From: Fibrobacter succinogenes
GTDB taxonomy: Bacteria; Fibrobacterota; Fibrobacteria; Fibrobacterales; Fibrobacteraceae
Assembly (NCBI GenBank): GCA_902756345.1
Contig: CACVQR010000004.1
Span: 1 to 64,000 of the forward strand
DNA length: 64,000 nucleotides
Direction of reading: 5' to 3'
In this document: positions 5,153-63,906 of the stretch, piece after piece
Position numbering within the stretch: the first letter of the stretch is position 1
Layout of the letters: every line of letters begins with the position of its first letter
Position numbers and translations under genes: made by a program
The notes under the pieces: generated by a model
Told to the model about the DNA's origin: nothing
Databases searched by the model: none
What the model saw: the letters and a program-made list of their open reading frames with translations, nothing else

Positions 5153-5155
5153 CAT

Positions 5156-5190
5156 TTCTAAGTTCTAAGATCTAATTACTAAGTTCTACT
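5156..5190. repeat. Heptamer array, TTCTAAG type
   Basis: Five consecutive 7-bp units: TTCTAAG, TTCTAAG, ATCTAAT, TACTAAG, TTCTACT. The last unit contains the TAG stop codon of the prolyl isomerase gene (5186-5188, minus strand). Confidence 0.75.
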
Positions 5191-6196
5191 TGCTAGCGCC
5201 GATAGCCTGCGGCGGAGTGTACTTGGCATCGAGGTACTGCACCTTGTAGACCTTTCCGAGGCCATCGAGGTAAGCCTTGAGCTGAGCCTGACGGTCCTGT
5301 TCGGCCTGCACACGCAGAATGTAGTCGATCTGATGCTTGTAGCTTTCGTACTTGCCGTCGTTCTTTTCGGTCAGCATAAAGATGGCGATACCGTCCTTGT
5401 CGGTATACGGTTCGGTGATTTCGCCGACCTTGACCTTGTTCACGGCCTTCACAAAAGCATCGCCCTTGGACTTGGCAACAAACTTAGCCATCACGCCACC
5501 AGTCTTCTTGGCGGTCTGGTCGTCGCTGTACATGGCAGCGAGCTGTGCAAAGGTAGCCTTCTTGCTGCGCACCTGTGCGGCAAGGCCCTGCAACATCACC
5601 TTGGCGTCTTCGATTTCCTGCTTGGACTTGCCCTTGGTGTAAATCACGATGCGGGCACCGCTAATGGAATCGTTAATGGCCACCTTCGTCTTGTTGAGTT
5701 CCCAAAAAGCTTCCTTCTGCTTTTCGGTCGGATCCTTCGGGTACGGCACCTTCTTTTCGAGGATTGCTTCGCTCTTCAGCTGGTCTTCGATCTTTTCCTT
5801 GAACTGGGCCATGGTGGTGTTAGACTTCTTGAGTTCCTTCTGGAAGGCGTCTTCGCTCGGGAACTGGGACTTGAAGAGTGCGGTCAGGCTGTCGACCTTG
5901 CCCTTGGAGACCTTGATGCCCATCTTCTTGGCTTCGAGCTTGATGAGTTCCTGACCGACCAGGTTGTCGATCACGGCATAACGGAGCTGGGTCATGGTCT
6001 TGTCGTCGATTTTCTTGCCGCGGAGCTGCTGTTCGCCGAGCATCTTGGCGAGGCTATCGATTTTACCTGCAGAAATACCGACTTTTTCCACACGGATTAC
6101 ATCCATGCTTTTGGAATTCAACAACTGAGCAGAAGCGATACCGGCAGCCAAAGCGACCGTCAGGATACCGCGAGAAACAAATTTAAAAGAACGCAT
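5186..6196 (-). CDS. Periplasmic PpiC/SurA-type peptidyl-prolyl isomerase
   Basis: A 336-residue protein with a Sec signal peptide (about residues 1-23, ending ASA-Q), an N-terminal helical SurA-like region ('QLRYAVIDNLVGQELIKLEAKK', residues 65-90) and one parvulin domain at about 180-285 ('GARIVIYTKGKSKQEIEDA...', 'FAQLAAMYSDDQTAKKTGGVM', 'VGEITEPYTDKDGIAIFML'). It is likely to fold or chaperone exported and outer-membrane proteins in the periplasm, fitting the many beta-barrel genes nearby. The start has AAGGA upstream and a TATATTTA box at 6225-6232. The usual His in 'ArHIL' is replaced by 'ARIVI', so isomerase activity is uncertain; a chaperone-only role is possible. Confidence 0.85.
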   Translation of the reverse strand: MRSFKFVSRGILTVALAAGIASAQLLNSKSMDVIRVEKVGISAGKIDSLAKMLGEQQLRGKKIDDKTMTQLRYAVIDNLVGQELIKLEAKKMGIKVSKGKVDSLTALFKSQFPSEDAFQKELKKSNTTMAQFKEKIEDQLKSEAILEKKVPYPKDPTEKQKEAFWELNKTKVAINDSISGARIVIYTKGKSKQEIEDAKVMLQGLAAQVRSKKATFAQLAAMYSDDQTAKKTGGVMAKFVAKSKGDAFVKAVNKVKVGEITEPYTDKDGIAIFMLTEKNDGKYESYKHQIDYILRVQAEQDRQAQLKAYLDGLGKVYKVQYLDAKYTPPQAIGASK

Positions 6197-6232: not shown

Positions 6233-6280
6233 GCAAATTAGTTAGTAGAACACCATAATTCTAAGACTTCACAACCTTTT

Positions 6281-6533
6281 GTGAGCCATAAGCGACTCGT
6301 CTTAAGGAGTCGTGTTGGCGAAAGCGAGGCGATATCATAAGTTCTTATATGAAATAGAGCCGAGCGGTCTGTCGTGAGCCAAAGAAGACTCATATTAATG
6401 AGTCTTTGAAGGCGAGAGCGAGGCGATATCATAGGTTCTAACAAGAAAAAGAGCTCATATTAATGAGTCTTTGAAGGCGAGAGCGAGGCGATATCATAGG
6501 TTCTAACAAGAAAAAGAGCCGAGCGGTCTGTAA
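6281..6533 (+). repeat. Three joined copies of the modular GTGAGCC/GATATCA element
   Basis: Unit 1 (6281-6374) has GTGAGCC, a CGACTC/GAGTCG stem, GCGAGGCGATATCA, an ATAAG/CTTAT stem and AGAGCCGAGCGGTCT. Unit 2 starts with GTGAGCC at 6375 and has a 22-nt perfect palindrome as its first stem (about 6387-6408) and TTCT/AGAA as its second. A 65-bp segment of unit 2 (from 6389) is repeated exactly from 6454, giving a third partial unit that ends in GAGCCGAGCGGTCTGT. Stem sequences differ between units but pairing is kept. Confidence 0.8.
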
Positions 6534-17336: not shown

Positions 17337-17444
17337 AACCGAGCGGTCTTTCGTGAGCAACAAAGCCCTCGGGTGTTAACCGAGGGCGGTTGCGAGAGTG
17401 AGGCGATATCACATTCTTGCGAATGATGTAGAGCCGAACGGTCT
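17337..17444 (+). repeat. Modular GTGAGC/GATATCA element, single copy
   Basis: CCGAGCGGTCTTTC precedes GTGAGC; then come a GCCCTCGG/CCGAGGGC stem, GCGAGAGTGAGGCGATATCA, a CATTC/GAATG stem and AGAGCCGAACGGTCT. It ends in TATATCGC, which overlaps the TAA stop of smc on the other strand. Confidence 0.8.
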
Positions 17445-29692: not shown

Positions 29693-29724
29693 CTGTCTAC
29701 TGTCTACTGCCTACTGCCTACTTT
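29693..29724. repeat. Heptamer array, GTCTACT type (about 4.5 units)
   Basis: CACT, then GTCTACT twice and GCCTACT twice: the reverse complement of the AGTAGAC array at 12401-12463, 17 kb away. It lies between two divergent genes, just upstream of the TATATTTG box at 29729. Confidence 0.8.
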
Positions 29725-29728
29725 TCTA

Positions 29729-29736
29729 TATTTGCG
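29729..29736 (+). promoter_or_regulatory. -7-like promoter box TATATTTG
   Basis: Exact TAnnTTTG, 27 nt before the ATG at 29764, with CGAGG as ribosome site. Confidence 0.5.
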
Positions 29737-30233: not shown

Positions 30234-30391
30234 AGCACGGCGCAAAGCGCCTCTGAGCTATGAGGCCGCTCATTTCATTCGCTCTGAGCAAAAAGCACCG
30301 AAGGTGCAATTATTAAACCCAAAGGTTTCTTTCAAGAAACCGGACTCACACCTCAAAGCGACCCATTAGGGGAGCGACCTCACGCCTCAAT
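30234..30391. repeat. Chain of short hairpins ending in GACCTCA heptamers
   Basis: Fills the gap before hrpB. Seen: GAGCTATGAGG, GCACCGAAGGTGC (30296-30308), AAACC/GGTTT and GGTTTC/GAAACC stems, then GACTCACACCTCA and GACCTCACGCCTCA in 7-bp phase up to the hrpB ATG. The same parts occur inside hrpB (32043-32080) and at 33053-33224 and 53819-53875. Confidence 0.65.
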
Positions 30392-33058
30392 ATGAATTAC
30401 AAAGACTTAGCACTCGCCGAAGAAGAAGGCAAACTGGAAGCCGCGATAGCGGCTTCTCGCAATTTATTGATTGAAGCGCCCACCGGCTCGGGCAAGTCGC
30501 TGTTCATCCCCTACTTTTTAAGCAAGCATTGCAAAGGCCGCGTCGTCGTACTGCAGCCCCGCCGCATTGCGGCGCTCGCACTCGCACAGTTCTCGGCAAA
30601 ACTCCACGGAGAGCCCTGCGGCAAGACCGTCGGCTACCAGTTCAGGCAAGACAGCTGCAAAAGCGCAGACACGCGCATTCTCTTTCAGACCTACGGTAAC
30701 TTTCTGCAAGAGCTCTTGCACGGCAAACTGGACGCCGACTGGATTGTGTTCGACGAATACCACGAACGCAAAGCTGACATGGACTTGTTGTTCGCGTATT
30801 TTAGACGAGAGAACGCTCGCAAGCTCGCTACAGACGAGAGACGAGAGGGACCGCGTGTGAGCCAGAGCGACCAAGCGGAAGCTGGTCGTGAAGGCGAGAG
30901 TGAGGCGATATCACATTGCTTTAGTAACAATAGAGCCGAACGGCCTCGTATCGCAGTAATGTCGGCGGCGTTGAACCGTTCCGAACTCGAAACGGTTCTC
31001 GGCGTCAAGTGTCTGAGTCTCGGTCACCCGCTCTACCCCGTGCAAATTATCAACCAGACGCCTGCCACGGGGAATTCGCTTGTTTCGGGCGTTGGACTTG
31101 ACGCCGAAGTGGTGCGGGCGCTCCGCACACTTTACCGCAACAACATCTGGCAGACCACGCTGGTATTCTTACCGGGCAAAGCCGAAATCGCCCGCTGCCA
31201 CACCGCCGCCGCCGAAGCACTCGGCAACAACTGCGCCGAATTCCTGGAACTCTACGGTGGCCAAGACCGCGAAACGCAAGACCGCATCTTCGAAGTCACC
31301 GAACGCCCGCGCGTGATTTTCACGACAAACATCGCCGAAACATCCATCACCGTTCCAAACGTCACGGGCGTTGTCGATAGCGGTATCGAACGTGTAAGCA
31401 TCTACGACGACAGCGAAAAGGTGAACGTCCTGCGCACGCTTCCCATTTCGATGCAGAATGCAATCCAGCGCAGCGGCCGTAGCGGCCGTACGCAAAACGG
31501 TTGCGCCATTCGCCTCTGGAGCGAAGAATCCGAAAAGCGCATGCCTCAAGGAATCGTGCCCGAAGTCTTGCAAATCGAGCCCTCGGAATTGATTCTGCAG
31601 AAAGCGGCGTTAGAGGATCTCGGCGAGGAGAGGAGATCCCGGATCAAGTCCGGGATGACAGATGGCATAGTACTTCCGACGGCGATTCCGGAAGCCCGCG
31701 AAAAGACGGCGACAGCACTCCTTGAAAATTTCGGGATGCTTCAGGACGGCGCCATCACCGAACTTGGCCTCAAGGCAATCCGCACGCCCGTTTCCAGCAT
31801 TCCGCTCGCGCTGCTCCTTGCATCGGCAAAAAACAAAGAAGACCTTCCCGACTTGCTCCTCGCCGCGCTCGCCTGGATTCATTCCGGCACCGAATTCTTG
31901 CAGAAGTCCAAAGTCGCCTACGACATTCTGACTCTCGCAAGCGACACGTTATCTAAAAGCCGCGACATTCCCCGCGAAGTCAGCTTTACGCTCCGACAGC
32001 TCCGCGACTACCGCGAAAAAATTGCAAGCCCCACACCCCAAAGGTGCGAAGCACCGACCTCAGACCTCATAGCGCATAGCCTTCTTAAGGCTTTCCCGGA
32101 CAGGCTCGCTACTCCGAGCGGCAACGCCTATAAGCTCGCCAACCAGAACGTGATTCGCCTGCAAGTTGCAGAACCGCCTTATGCGATTCTCGCCCTCAGC
32201 ATGCTCCGTACCGGCGGCGGTAGCAAATCGGAACTTAAAGTTAATTTATACGCACCTATCGCCAAGGAACTTCTCGGCGGCGAAAGTGCCAAGACCCGCT
32301 ACGAACTCTTGTGGCGCAGCGGTCAAGAAAGATTCATCGGTGTCGAAATCAGCGAATCCGAAAACGCCGACGGCTCCACTACCGAACTTTCCCGCAAAGA
32401 AATCCTCACACAAGAAGCTTCGCCTAAAGTTCTTGAAGAACTCAAGAAGCTTACCGTTGATGCCTGGCGCGAAAAAATCGAGAAAGAAAACTGGAGCGGC
32501 AAGTTCCTGACCGAAGCCGTGCAAACGCAGCTCATCAAAATGCGTCTTGCAGCCAAGCTCTATCCGGAATACGGCCTTCCCGAATTCAACGAAGAAGACA
32601 TGGAACTCATCTTCGATGAATTCGCAGAAGGCAAGTTCCTGCTCCGCGACATAAACGAAGACCGTTATAGGAACATTGTCGAAGATTACTTTGGCAAGTC
32701 CATGCTGCAATGGCTAGGCAAGACATTCCCCGACCACTACGTGCTCCCCAACGGCAAACGCGCCCGCTACAGCTATCAAGAAGTCGCTGTCAGTGACGAC
32801 GGAAAATCTGTGCAAAGCATCGAAGGCGTCCTCGTCGAAATTTCGGCCCGCATCGAAGACTTGATGCAGCTCCGCGGCGAGCACAGAATCGCCGACGGCA
32901 AATTAAAAGTCCGGTACGACATTCTGGCACCGAACTTCCGGACGATTCAAAAGACATGGGACTTGACCGGATTCTGGCAAAACACTTATGCCGAAGTCCG
33001 CAAGGAGCTGCGCGGTCGCTACCCCAAGCATCCCTGGCCCGAGAGGATTGAGCAATGA
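30392..33058 (+). CDS. hrpB: ATP-dependent helicase HrpB, with repeat-derived insertions
   Basis: 888 residues, a DExH-box helicase. Walker A 'APTGSGKS' at about 29-36, the DExH motif 'DEYH' near 119-122, 'VMSAALN' (motif III) near 190, 'TNIAETSITVPNVTGVVDSG' near 312 and 'QRSGRSGR' (motif VI) near 362; the C-terminal part is HrpB-like ('YPKHPWPE' near the end). Three in-frame repeat insertions interrupt it: residues about 137-186, 412-425 and 550-565. All motifs stay intact, so the enzyme is probably functional. The start lies in repeat sequence without a Shine-Dalgarno. HrpB's cellular role is poorly defined in bacteria. Confidence 0.9.
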   Translation: MNYKDLALAEEEGKLEAAIAASRNLLIEAPTGSGKSLFIPYFLSKHCKGRVVVLQPRRIAALALAQFSAKLHGEPCGKTVGYQFRQDSCKSADTRILFQTYGNFLQELLHGKLDADWIVFDEYHERKADMDLLFAYFRRENARKLATDERREGPRVSQSDQAEAGREGESEAISHCFSNNRAERPRIAVMSAALNRSELETVLGVKCLSLGHPLYPVQIINQTPATGNSLVSGVGLDAEVVRALRTLYRNNIWQTTLVFLPGKAEIARCHTAAAEALGNNCAEFLELYGGQDRETQDRIFEVTERPRVIFTTNIAETSITVPNVTGVVDSGIERVSIYDDSEKVNVLRTLPISMQNAIQRSGRSGRTQNGCAIRLWSEESEKRMPQGIVPEVLQIEPSELILQKAALEDLGEERRSRIKSGMTDGIVLPTAIPEAREKTATALLENFGMLQDGAITELGLKAIRTPVSSIPLALLLASAKNKEDLPDLLLAALAWIHSGTEFLQKSKVAYDILTLASDTLSKSRDIPREVSFTLRQLRDYREKIASPTPQRCEAPTSDLIAHSLLKAFPDRLATPSGNAYKLANQNVIRLQVAEPPYAILALSMLRTGGGSKSELKVNLYAPIAKELLGGESAKTRYELLWRSGQERFIGVEISESENADGSTTELSRKEILTQEASPKVLEELKKLTVDAWREKIEKENWSGKFLTEAVQTQLIKMRLAAKLYPEYGLPEFNEEDMELIFDEFAEGKFLLRDINEDRYRNIVEDYFGKSMLQWLGKTFPDHYVLPNGKRARYSYQEVAVSDDGKSVQSIEGVLVEISARIEDLMQLRGEHRIADGKLKVRYDILAPNFRTIQKTWDLTGFWQNTYAEVRKELRGRYPKHPWPERIEQ
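30801..30952 (+). repeat. Composite repeat inserted in frame in hrpB
   Basis: First part (30801-30849) is a 49-bp element shared with the aminotransferase gene at 63434-63482, encoding RRENARKLATDERREG. Second part (about 30855-30951) is the modular GTGAGCC/GATATCA element with a CGACCA/TGGTCG first stem and an ATTG/CAAT second stem, ending in GAGCCGAACGGCCT and TATCGC. Together they add about 48 residues between the DExH motif and motif III. Confidence 0.9.
31636..31656 (+). repeat. REP-like palindrome inserted in hrpB
   Basis: ATCCCGGA (31636-31643) mirrors TCCGGGAT (31649-31656), followed by GACAGATGGC. CCCGGATCAAGTCCGGG-type palindromes are common intergenic repeats. Here it is translated as 'RRSRIKSGMTDGI'. 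Confidence 0.75.
32043..32080 (+). repeat. Hairpin plus GACCTCA heptamers inserted in hrpB
   Basis: GGTGC-GAA-GCACC (32043-32055), then GACCTCA, GACCTCA, TAGCGCA, TAGC in 7-bp phase. Same design as the repeats flanking hrpB. Translated as 'RCEAPTSDLIAHS'. Confidence 0.75.
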
Positions 33059-33224
33059 GCACGGCACTATAGTGCCTTCGAGGTCGCTTCGCTTAGAGTT
33101 CAAGGCTTTCTACAAAAAAACATTTTCTATCGCGAAATCGTCACCAAACTTTTTCTCAAAGCCTTGTATAACAAGGCGACCTCATCACTCAAAGAGAGCC
33201 GAAGGCGATCGACCTCGCACCTAT
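33053..33224. repeat. GACCTCG-type element between convergent genes
   Basis: Starts at GAGCAATGAGCAC, which contains the hrpB stop (TGA at 33056-33058); includes GGCACTATAGTGCC, GAGGTCGC and a GACCTCATCACTCA segment; ends with GAAGGCGATCGACCTCG and CACCTAT, which contains the TAG stop of the convergent gene (33221-33223). Confidence 0.65.
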
Positions 33225-49209: not shown

Positions 49210-49292
49210 GTTGGTAGAGCTTAGTTGGTAGAACTTAGACATTTTCTAAGTTCTAAGCTCTAAGTTCTAAATTCTAAATACTACATTACCCA
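49210..49292. repeat. Heptamer array, GAACTTA / TCTAAGT type (about 12 units)
   Basis: GTTGGTA, GAGCTTA, GTTGGTA, GAACTTA, GACATTT, then TCTAAGT-type units continue in unbroken 7-bp phase to within 2 bp of the ATG at 49295. The halves are inverted (GAACTTAGA versus TCTAAGTTC), giving a long imperfect hairpin. It fills the gap between two plus-strand genes. Same family as 5156-5190. Confidence 0.85.
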
Positions 49293-49294
49293 TT

Positions 49295-50272
49295 ATGATT
49301 AAAGGCGTAAGTTATTTTGGCGTGCGTTCGCCTAAGCATGTTCTTGCCGATATGCAAGACATCAAGGCGGCGGGTTTTAACGCGGTGCTCCACACCTGGA
49401 GCGAAGAAGACCAGCAATACTACTACGGCACCATGAAGGATATCGTGGACCAGTCCGCAGACCTCGGTCTGACAGTCTACGTGAACCCATGGGGCGTGGG
49501 CCGCGTGTTTGGCGGTGAAGCGTATTCGGAACTGACTGCACGCAACCACGACTTATGCCAGGTGGCGCTCGACGGCAAGCCCAAGGTGGCCGCCTGCCCG
49601 AACCATCCGGAGTTCCGCGCCTACATGCACAAGTGGATTGAAAGCGTATGCGCCACGAAAGTGAGCACGATTTTCTGGGACGAGCCGCATTTTTACTTTG
49701 AGAAGGGCGGGCTTAGCAACTGGAGCTGCCGCTGCCCGCATTGTCGCGAGAAGTTCCGCGCCCAGTTCGGCTACGAGATGCCCGCCGAACTCACCGACGA
49801 CGTGAAGAAATTCCGCGAGGATTCGCTCATTGACTTTTTGAGGGAAATGACCGAGGACGTTCATGCCCGCGGCAAGCGCAACTGCGTTTGCATGCTGCCG
49901 CCGTGGTTCCCCGCAGGTCTTGACGACTGGGGCCGCGTTGCAGGCCTTGAAAGCGTAGACGAAGTCGCATCTGACCCGTATTGGGAAAAGGGTGCCACCG
50001 AAGAATGGGTCCGCGAAAAATACGCCGAGACTGCTCGCAAGCTGACCGAAGTCGCCGCCAAGTACGGCAAGGCCGTGCAGATGTGGATCAAGGCGTACCA
50101 GATCGAGGCCGGCCGCGAAAACGACCTAGCCATCGCCGTCGAGGAAAGCCGCAAAGCAGGTATCGACAACATCTTCGCGTGGAGCTACCGCGGCACAGAA
50201 ACGCTCAGCTGGCTAAAAAGCGACAACCCGGACGAAGTCGCCCGGGTGTTCAGGAAATCGCTCAGTCTCTAA
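49295..50272 (+). CDS. Putative glycoside-hydrolase-like TIM-barrel protein
   Basis: 325 residues, no signal peptide. The pattern suggests a (beta/alpha)8 barrel: 'GVSYFGVRSPKHVLADMQDIKAAGFNAVLHTWSEED', 'DLGLTVYVNPWGVGRVFGG', 'STIFWDEPHFYF' (an acidic strand end that could be catalytic), 'CVCMLPPWF', 'VDEVASDPYW', 'VQMWIKAYQI', 'GIDNIFAWSYRG'. A CxCPHC segment (about 142-148) may bind metal. Hypothetical proteins of this type exist beside carbohydrate genes; no activity is claimed. Its 5' region is a heptamer array with a weak TACATTAC box 5 nt before the ATG. Confidence 0.6.
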   Translation: MIKGVSYFGVRSPKHVLADMQDIKAAGFNAVLHTWSEEDQQYYYGTMKDIVDQSADLGLTVYVNPWGVGRVFGGEAYSELTARNHDLCQVALDGKPKVAACPNHPEFRAYMHKWIESVCATKVSTIFWDEPHFYFEKGGLSNWSCRCPHCREKFRAQFGYEMPAELTDDVKKFREDSLIDFLREMTEDVHARGKRNCVCMLPPWFPAGLDDWGRVAGLESVDEVASDPYWEKGATEEWVREKYAETARKLTEVAAKYGKAVQMWIKAYQIEAGRENDLAIAVEESRKAGIDNIFAWSYRGTETLSWLKSDNPDEVARVFRKSLSL

Positions 50273-62622: not shown

Positions 62623-63906
62623 TTACAATTCTTTCATTCGCTGCACCGCATCCTTGAAAATCGCGGGCTCTTGCAGTAAGCTGATTACCACCCAGCCGTC
62701 TTCGTCGAAATCGAAGAAGAACCCGGGTTGCACCAGCACATGCTTTTCGCGGAGCAAACGGAGCGTGAGTTCCTCGTCGTCTTCGCCGAGGCGAACAACC
62801 GCATACCAACCGCCGAGAACCTCGGGGCAGTACTTGGAGGGGAAAGCTTCGCGGAGCGTCTGCCAGTTGGCAAGCAAGCGTTCCTTGACGCGCGATTCGT
62901 AAGCGGCGGCCGCGGGCAACAGCGACGTACCCAGCGCCTGCGCCGGAGCAGATACACTCAAGTAGGCATCTTCCACGAATTCGAGCGCCGCGCGAATTTC
63001 TTCGAAGCGTTCGCGGGGCGCGTAAAAAGCCATCCAGCCGAGCTTGAGCTGCGGGGAACCCACTGCCTTGCTTAAGCCGTTCAGCCAGAAGATGGGGCAC
63101 TTGGGACCGTCTTCCGGGAGGTTGATGAAGTCGTTACCGCCCGCATCCCATAGATTATTTGATTTTTCCTCAATGGATTGCTTCCCCCCTTCGGGGGTCG
63201 CAATGACGTATTGCCAAGTACGCTTTACTTTATCCGTAAGCGCATAATCGCCGAAGACTTCGTCCACCACGAGAATCATGTCGTTTTCTTCGCAGAAACG
63301 GACCGCCGCATTCCACTCTTCGCGCGACACGCAATGCCCGGTCGGGTTATGCGGCGAAACCAGCAGCAGGATTTTCGCTTTCTCGGGAGCCGCCAACAAG
63401 CTGTCGGAATCGAGAACGAATCTAAACGCCGCGCCCTCTCGTCTCTCGTCTGTAGCGAGTTTACGAGCGTTCTCTCGTCTAAGTTGCAGAAAATAGGGCG
63501 CACATTCCAAATGTTCGAGCTGTGCAAGCGTATCGAGCAGCGGGTAGCCGGGCATCGGCGTCAGAATCACATCGCCCGGATCGCAGAATGTCTTGAACAA
63601 AACCGAATACGCTTCGCTGGTGCTCGCCGTAAGGATAATCTGACCAGCCGTAAAATTGCCCCCGCGTTCGCGGTAATACTCCACCACCGCTTCGCGGGCC
63701 GACTTCCAACCCGCCGCATCCGGATTCCAGCAACCAAAAGACTCGCGGCCTTCATCGACAGCGGCATCCAGCTCCACCGGCAGTCCCGCCTTCACAGGCG
63801 AAGAAACCGTCATGTCAATAAACGGCGCTGACTCAGCCTTCGCACGCTCCAATTCGGCAAAGAACGGCGATGGCGAAAGATCTTTAGGCAAGCGGGAAGA
63901 AAGCAT
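62623..63906 (-). CDS. Class I/II PLP aminotransferase with in-frame repeat insertion
   Basis: 427 residues. Seen: 'DMTVSSPVKAGLPV', 'ILTASTSEAYSVLFKTFCDPGDVILTPMPGYPLLDTLAQLEHLE', 'LLLVSPHNPTGHCVSREEW', 'LVVDEVFGDYAL' and 'FWLNGLSKAVGSPQLKLGWMAF' (PLP Lys in LSK). It fits the aspartate/alanine aminotransferase group; substrate uncertain. Residues about 142-158 (RRENARKLATDERREG) are a 49-bp repeat also present in hrpB, placed between the small-domain strand 'PYFLQL' and 'FRFVLDSDSLL', a likely surface loop. The start overlaps the stop of the upstream gene (TAATG). Confidence 0.9.
   Translation of the reverse strand: MLSSRLPKDLSPSPFFAELERAKAESAPFIDMTVSSPVKAGLPVELDAAVDEGRESFGCWNPDAAGWKSAREAVVEYYRERGGNFTAGQIILTASTSEAYSVLFKTFCDPGDVILTPMPGYPLLDTLAQLEHLECAPYFLQLRRENARKLATDERREGAAFRFVLDSDSLLAAPEKAKILLLVSPHNPTGHCVSREEWNAAVRFCEENDMILVVDEVFGDYALTDKVKRTWQYVIATPEGGKQSIEEKSNNLWDAGGNDFINLPEDGPKCPIFWLNGLSKAVGSPQLKLGWMAFYAPRERFEEIRAALEFVEDAYLSVSAPAQALGTSLLPAAAAYESRVKERLLANWQTLREAFPSKYCPEVLGGWYAVVRLGEDDEELTLRLLREKHVLVQPGFFFDFDEDGWVVISLLQEPAIFKDAVQRMKEL
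63434..63482 (-). repeat. 49-bp element inserted in frame in an aminotransferase gene
   Basis: Minus-strand copy of the element at 30801-30849, with two differences (CGC/CGT and AAG/AAA), both synonymous in the shared reading frame. It contains AGACGAG three times. It lacks the modular GTGAGCC part that follows in hrpB. Confidence 0.9.

Follow-up and report, generated by a model that had tools for sequence, protein, structure and literature searches.

The hrpB gene and its three loops

The window, meaning the whole stretch of DNA that was analysed, is the first 64 kb (64,000 nucleotides) of contig C4 of a Fibrobacter genome, here called G000. The genome is 3.36 Mb long, lies in 27 contigs and is 99.2% complete. 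The window contains hrpB, a gene for a DEAH-box helicase. Short repeat elements lie inside three loops of this gene, and related repeats lie around it and elsewhere in the window.

30392–33058, plus strand: hrpB, 888-aa DEAH-box helicase; Pfam HrpB_C, Helicase_C and DEAD
30800–30848, plus strand: element A in loop 1, about 49 bp; TTTA and GACGAGA heptamers around a short core; encodes RRENARKLATDERRE
30856–30946, plus strand: element B in loop 1, 91 nt, two hairpins; encodes RVSQSDQAEAGREGESEAISHCFSNNRAER; covariance model R1, 75.8 bits, E 3.9e-14
31632–31661, minus strand: element C in loop 2, a TGTC-tagged palindrome, TGTCATCCCGGACTTGATCCGGGAT on the minus strand; RSRIKSGMT encoded on the plus strand
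32032–32070, plus strand: element D in loop 3; CCCCAAAG block, GGTGC/GCACC hairpin, CGACCTC block, GACCTCA heptamers
30352–30381, plus strand: D-family composite, intergenic, upstream of hrpB
33080–33098, minus strand: D-like composite, intergenic, just past the hrpB stop
33155–33183, plus strand: D-family composite, intergenic, downstream of hrpB, 6-bp stem
33188–33216, plus strand: D-family composite, intergenic, downstream of hrpB
6280–6370, plus strand: element B, intergenic copy, covariance model match
17352–17444, plus strand: element B, intergenic copy that abuts the following gene at its 3' end
63434–63482, minus strand: element A within an aminotransferase gene (CDS 62623–63813), in the same frame as in HrpB and with the identical peptide RRENARKLATDERRE

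An earlier note on this DNA placed repeat-derived segments at residues of about 137–186, 412–425 and 550–565 of HrpB, and all three are found there. It counted three insertions. There are indeed three sites, but they hold four elements, since loop 1 carries both A and B. The note also described the same repeat families on both sides of the gene. This holds for the D family, with the four intergenic composites listed above; elements A, B and C were not found flanking hrpB.

The identity of the protein is supported by HrpB_C, which scores 94.1 bits (Pfam cut-off 25), and by matches to Helicase_C and DEAD. The nearest solved structures, both by sequence and by fold, are those of E. coli HrpB, 6eud and 6heg. 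These two also come out on top in a Foldseek search with the model of the protein, and 6eud is the best fold match. The NCBIfam equivalog model for HrpB, TIGR01970, scores 328.8 bits, under its cut-off of 546. Because no other model scores better, the protein is classed here as a member of a divergent HrpB lineage, not as an equivalog. Its closest named relatives are Fibrobacter metagenome-assembled genomes (MAGs), many of them from rumen and gut.

The missed equivalog cut-off could also be taken as a sign of decay, with the inserts marking a dying gene. This is highly improbable. The frame is open across Fibrobacter and the helicase motifs are invariant, as the earlier note had said for the window copy. 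The core of the protein has a dN/dS of 0.02–0.09 in a comparison between relatives, which corresponds to strong purifying selection and rules decay out. The same low ratio indicates that HrpB is a translated and constrained protein, and the protein with its inserts is probably made and works normally. For the loop codons, pN/pS is about 0.78 in the aligned codons, which is near neutral, a value that is sensitive to the loop alignment, itself uncertain.

The earlier note raised the question of whether the inserts are surface loops. An AlphaFold2 model of HrpB has a mean pLDDT of 86.7. Within this confident model, the inserts lie between secondary-structure elements, running from helix to helix or from helix to strand. 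Loop 1 lies between motifs II and III, loop 2 after the second RecA domain, and loop 3 in the C-terminal part, between two helices. The pLDDT drops below 50 at residues 160–180, and is below that of the surroundings at about 411–420 and 541–560. Since the inserts fall between secondary-structure elements and have reduced pLDDT, they are predicted to be loops on the protein surface.

Repeat elements and their copies

Copies of the four elements were searched for in the entire genome. Each of the repeats in HrpB, as the earlier note had it, also occurs elsewhere: A, B and C have copies in the genome, and D is a member of a composite family.

Element A has about eight further strong copies, with 85–96% identity. 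Most of these are within predicted coding sequences and are read in several frames, giving RRENARKLATDERRE or DERT..SLQTRDER, and SLSSLVCSELASVLS on the opposite strand. The DERT..SLQTRDER frame is also found in loop 2 or loop 3 of HrpB from other species. A stem of at least four pairs is present in 3 of 11 cores of element A, a weaker case for a hairpin than that of element D. The trinucleotide TTA directly precedes 28 of 73 distinct copies of the heptamer or element A, compared with about one expected by chance, the 73 copies not being mutually independent. Empty hrpB loops already read TTAG or TTAA. Together, the TTA excess and the empty loops suggest TTA or TTAG as a possible preferred insertion target.

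Element B has a fixed layout, consisting of GTGAGC, a hairpin of variable sequence, GCGAGAGYGAGGC, a loop of about 28 nt, and GCCGARCGGTC. Its covariance model was built from 17 copies, the hrpB copy included among them. The model finds 47 copies in G000. Searched with the same model, each of 19 Fibrobacter genomes has copies, and a set of 12 relatives from outside the genus has none. The stems of element B covary. Among the 17 copies, the proposed pairs are formed in 91.8% of cells, compared with 77.8% when partners are shuffled, and pairing falls to 28–42% when the columns are slid by one to three. Double changes number 41, with 15 expected from the shuffles.

Although the window has three copies of element B, it gives no Rfam match at the gathering threshold, and the idea that B is a known RNA family was dropped. 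The element is often found at gene 3' ends and may be a structured RNA or a REP-like element itself. At 6389–6518, a 65-bp unit that includes part of element B is tandemly duplicated without any change.

Element C has the form TGTC-ATCCCGGA-CTTGA-TCCGGGAT, with a folding z-score of -2.8. It has 26 further BLAST matches in the genome at E up to 1. At three mismatches or fewer, 15 sites occur in G000, while the reversed control gives none. Among the genomes searched, sites of element C were not found outside the genus Fibrobacter. The copies show matched changes in the two arms of the stem, namely CCCGG/CCGGG, CCCCG/CGGGG and CCCGC/GCGGG.

Element D clearly belongs to a composite repeat family. 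Its GGTGC hairpin is flanked by a CTCAAAG-like block and a CGACCTC block. In the sequence examined, there are 17 copies with exact flanks, and these have 17 different cores. A stem of at least four pairs is formed in 9 of the 17, where 0.5 would be expected.

Heptamer arrays are distributed according to their stop codons in a 420-kb sample. Exact (GACGAGA)n arrays, which are open in all six frames, occur only in coding sequences. Arrays of TCTAAGT, AGTAGGA, AGTAGAC, ACTCATA and ATGTGAA, which have stops on at least one strand, occur only between genes. Such stop-bearing intergenic arrays are found on C4 at, for example, 5155–5195, 29693–29730 and 49243–49297. A gene near hrpB in other Fibrobacter (L038:11008-12381, L041:1578-2900, L052:3530-4999) has GACGAGA heptamers on the opposite strand, giving SLSSLVSRLSSNTDS repeats.

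The segments could in principle be ancestral HrpB sequence, with matches to repeats arising by chance or low complexity. The earlier note named this as the finding that would overturn its claim. The small number of BLAST relatives of element D in the genome fits such a reading, which is nonetheless vanishingly improbable. For A, B and C it is refuted, by the covariation and copy number of B and the excess of C sites over the reversed control among other things. In addition, HrpB from other families of Fibrobacterota has short, unrelated sequence at all three loop sites, and close relatives have loops that are empty or otherwise filled. In place of the A and B of G000, for instance, the relatives G003 and G010 have FRGAERPRIAV. 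Loop 1 has A alone in the MAG L162 and B alone in the MAG L167. These outgroup and sister comparisons rule out an ancestral origin.

Turnover of the inserts across Fibrobacter

To place the window gene among its relatives, 60 Fibrobacter hrpB genes were compared with 1.1 Mb of other Fibrobacter DNA. This gave 127 matching segments, 33 of them reflecting paralogy with HrpA near motif V, 93 located within the loops and a single one C-terminal. Thus 93 of the 94 non-homologous repeat matches fall inside the three loops. Loop 1 has matches in 22 of the 60 species, loop 2 in 33 and loop 3 in 26. Within Fibrobacter, the aligned loop stretches range from 6–18 up to 81–83 residues.

Among the families found in the loops are (GACGAGA)n, A, B and TGTC/CGTC palindromes, along with GGTTCGACAGGCTCACC-type repeats. 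One and the same family occurs in differing loops and frames, and different families share a loop between species. Element A, for instance, occupies loops 1, 2 and 3 in various species. In one case (L158 compared with L164), a hairpin landed within a heptamer array. No defined family is present in 19 of the 60 species, among them the early-branching lineages, and the gene is intact in these.

On a quick tree of the core protein, 13 family-by-loop traits require at least 69 state changes. The pattern used for element A missed variants (in loop 2 of G010 and L152), and its change counts are therefore lower bounds. The density of repeats is 0.77 per kb in hrpB, 0.034 in other coding sequences and 0.41 between genes, in a sample made up of the hrpB neighbourhoods of 22 species and 460 kb of G000; the patterns for A and B were partly defined from hrpB, which favours hrpB for these two, and the CGTC matches in other coding sequences mostly look like chance, so that 0.034 is if anything an overestimate.

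The earlier note regarded one gene as a landing site for three families as striking. This was, if anything, understated, since at least five families are involved and the hotspot extends across the genus, so that the window gene is not one curious allele. Very probably, hrpB in Fibrobacter is a recurrent site for the landing and turnover of several short, non-autonomous families of hairpin repeats.

In the proposed mechanism, TGTC/CGTC palindromes, heptamer-flanked variable hairpins and the 91-nt element B would be spread through the genome by some agent. Copies in genes would persist if they have no stop in the host frame, if their net length keeps the frame, and if the site is a surface loop. 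A loop filled in this way could then take up nested repeats, or swap them by slippage and recombination. That the elements move at all is inferred from the pattern of their copies.

One candidate for the agent is a RAYT/Y1 transposase. This was rejected, as a search with PF01797 gives no match in G000. The matches in relatives are open frames of 157–165 aa with the look of ordinary IS200-type genes. One of these has a copy of element A about 200 bp downstream, which looks coincidental. Overall, none of the elements could be tied to a transposase, a reverse transcriptase or any other mover.

An alternative is that the contents of the loops spread mostly by recombination of hrpB alleles between species, together with slippage, and that true insertions are few. 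In G000 and G003, loop 2 has near-identical DNA although the cores differ more, and the species with element B in loop 1 are dispersed across the tree. Whole-loop homologous recombination between strains could thus account for some of the changes. Allele exchange cannot, however, bring the same element into different loops and frames, as seen for A, or into unrelated genes. As the main explanation it is rather unlikely.

The inserts are also found outside hrpB. HrpA orthologues carry the same elements at residues of about 50–87, 218–234, 806–823 and 836–850, and at about 995 in one species. The hrpA gene of G000 (L080:512-4528) contains copies of A and D together with heptamer-like inserts, and the HrpA proteins of other Fibrobacter (L219–L238) have inserts at recurrent loops of their own. 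Further hosts in G000 are the aminotransferase, an RluD-like pseudouridine synthase, RsmB, RlmL, TrpC/F, an M18 peptidase and a maltokinase-like protein. HrpB is thus not the only enzyme to carry these elements.

Several of these hosts are RNA enzymes, in a list that is small and partly selected. The survey of the genome covered 460 kb, namely C4 1–420000 and 40 kb of C6, and the C6 piece was chosen for hrpA, which skews the list toward HrpA. In other bacteria, too, RNA helicases and pseudouridine synthases are reported to hold REPs (PMC3733652), so that a bias toward RNA enzymes may be general.

Selection on the loops themselves would be a further explanation. Here, diversification of HrpB and HrpA by repeats would alter the binding of partners or RNA, or evade a factor of phages or competitors, and would be adaptation rather than tolerance. 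The density of repeats in hrpB exceeds that between genes and turnover is rapid, which goes beyond what mere tolerance might give, and the hosts lean to the RNA enzymes HrpB, HrpA, RluD-like, RsmB and RlmL. Such adaptation is nevertheless quite improbable. The loop pN/pS of 0.78 is not above 1, the peptides encoded by the inserts show no relation from one species or frame to another, and the 19 species without defined families keep an intact hrpB.

A broader reading, put forward only tentatively, goes beyond a landing site in hrpB. Fibrobacter may have undescribed tiny mobile elements, namely hairpins that vary freely inside a conserved pair of heptamers, and the 91-nt element B. These would target short sites such as TTAG and continually supply proteins with new segments, and their favoured hosts would be RNA helicases and enzymes that modify rRNA.

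Comparison with known repeat systems

Several known systems resemble the Fibrobacter repeats in part. Rickettsia palindromic elements (RPEs) are palindromic repeats that lie in frame in conserved proteins, where they are tolerated, and also between genes; in the case of Gmk, the protein is translated and active (PMC2229807). The likeness of the Fibrobacter repeats to RPEs is one of behaviour, as they too are in frame in conserved proteins and have intergenic copies. RPEs are 105–146 bp long with long stem-loops, as reviewed in PMC2229807. In contrast, the Fibrobacter elements are about 25–91 nt long, belong to several unrelated families and share, throughout a genus, three loops of a single protein.

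Another system is that of the small dispersed repeats (SDRs) of Nostoc, which were reportedly described by Elhai in 2008 as tiny hairpins with compensatory changes, embedded in tandem heptamer arrays. The likeness to these SDRs (or STRRs) is one of features, as covarying hairpins occur in heptamer arrays, clearly for element D and less so for element A. Elements A and D probably differ from them in sequence; they come from another phylum and are frequently in coding DNA.

Element C recalls the CGTC-tagged REP palindromes (CGTC-REPs). These are defined by a CGTC or TGTC tag at one end, a stem of 8–9 bp starting with AT and a loop of 4–5 nt, and a tail CCA fits most of them but not all (PMC3733652). 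Element C has the tag in its variant TGTC, an 8-bp stem starting with AT, a 5-nt loop and many dispersed copies. Its window copy reads CTCC after the stem, not CCA. For the CGTC-REPs, no dedicated transposase is known, intragenic copies are reported, and RPE-4 and RPE-6 belong to them (PMC3733652). The phyla given are Proteobacteria, Chlorobi, Bacteroidetes, Spirochaetes and Thermotogae (PMC3733652). Fibrobacter is not mentioned in the main text of that paper.

Finally, REPIN/RAYT systems consist of short hairpin repeats that are thought to spread non-autonomously (PMC3116915). The Fibrobacter elements are without the GTAG tag, and no Y1/RAYT gene was found in G000. In the open-access literature, nothing relevant was found on Fibrobacter repeats or on HrpB insertions, which speaks only weakly for novelty.

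Palindromic repeats inserted in frame are documented chiefly in Rickettsia and some REP-rich bacteria, as a rule one or two inserts among scattered genes. The hrpB genes of Fibrobacter provide dozens of natural replicates, with the same three loops, at least five families and several frames. Gains and losses in the loops separate species that are only a few percent apart in the core. With such replicates, the change from noncoding repeat to protein, the frames that are tolerated and any continuing movement can all be measured. In this sense, hrpB would be a natural record of tiny mobile sequences, elsewhere mainly intergenic, turning into protein. The behaviour itself is, by analogy, that already known from RPEs and intragenic REPs (PMC2229807, PMC3733652). 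What appears to be new is the genus, the covarying element B and, above all, that several families have repeatedly used the same three loops of a single enzyme.
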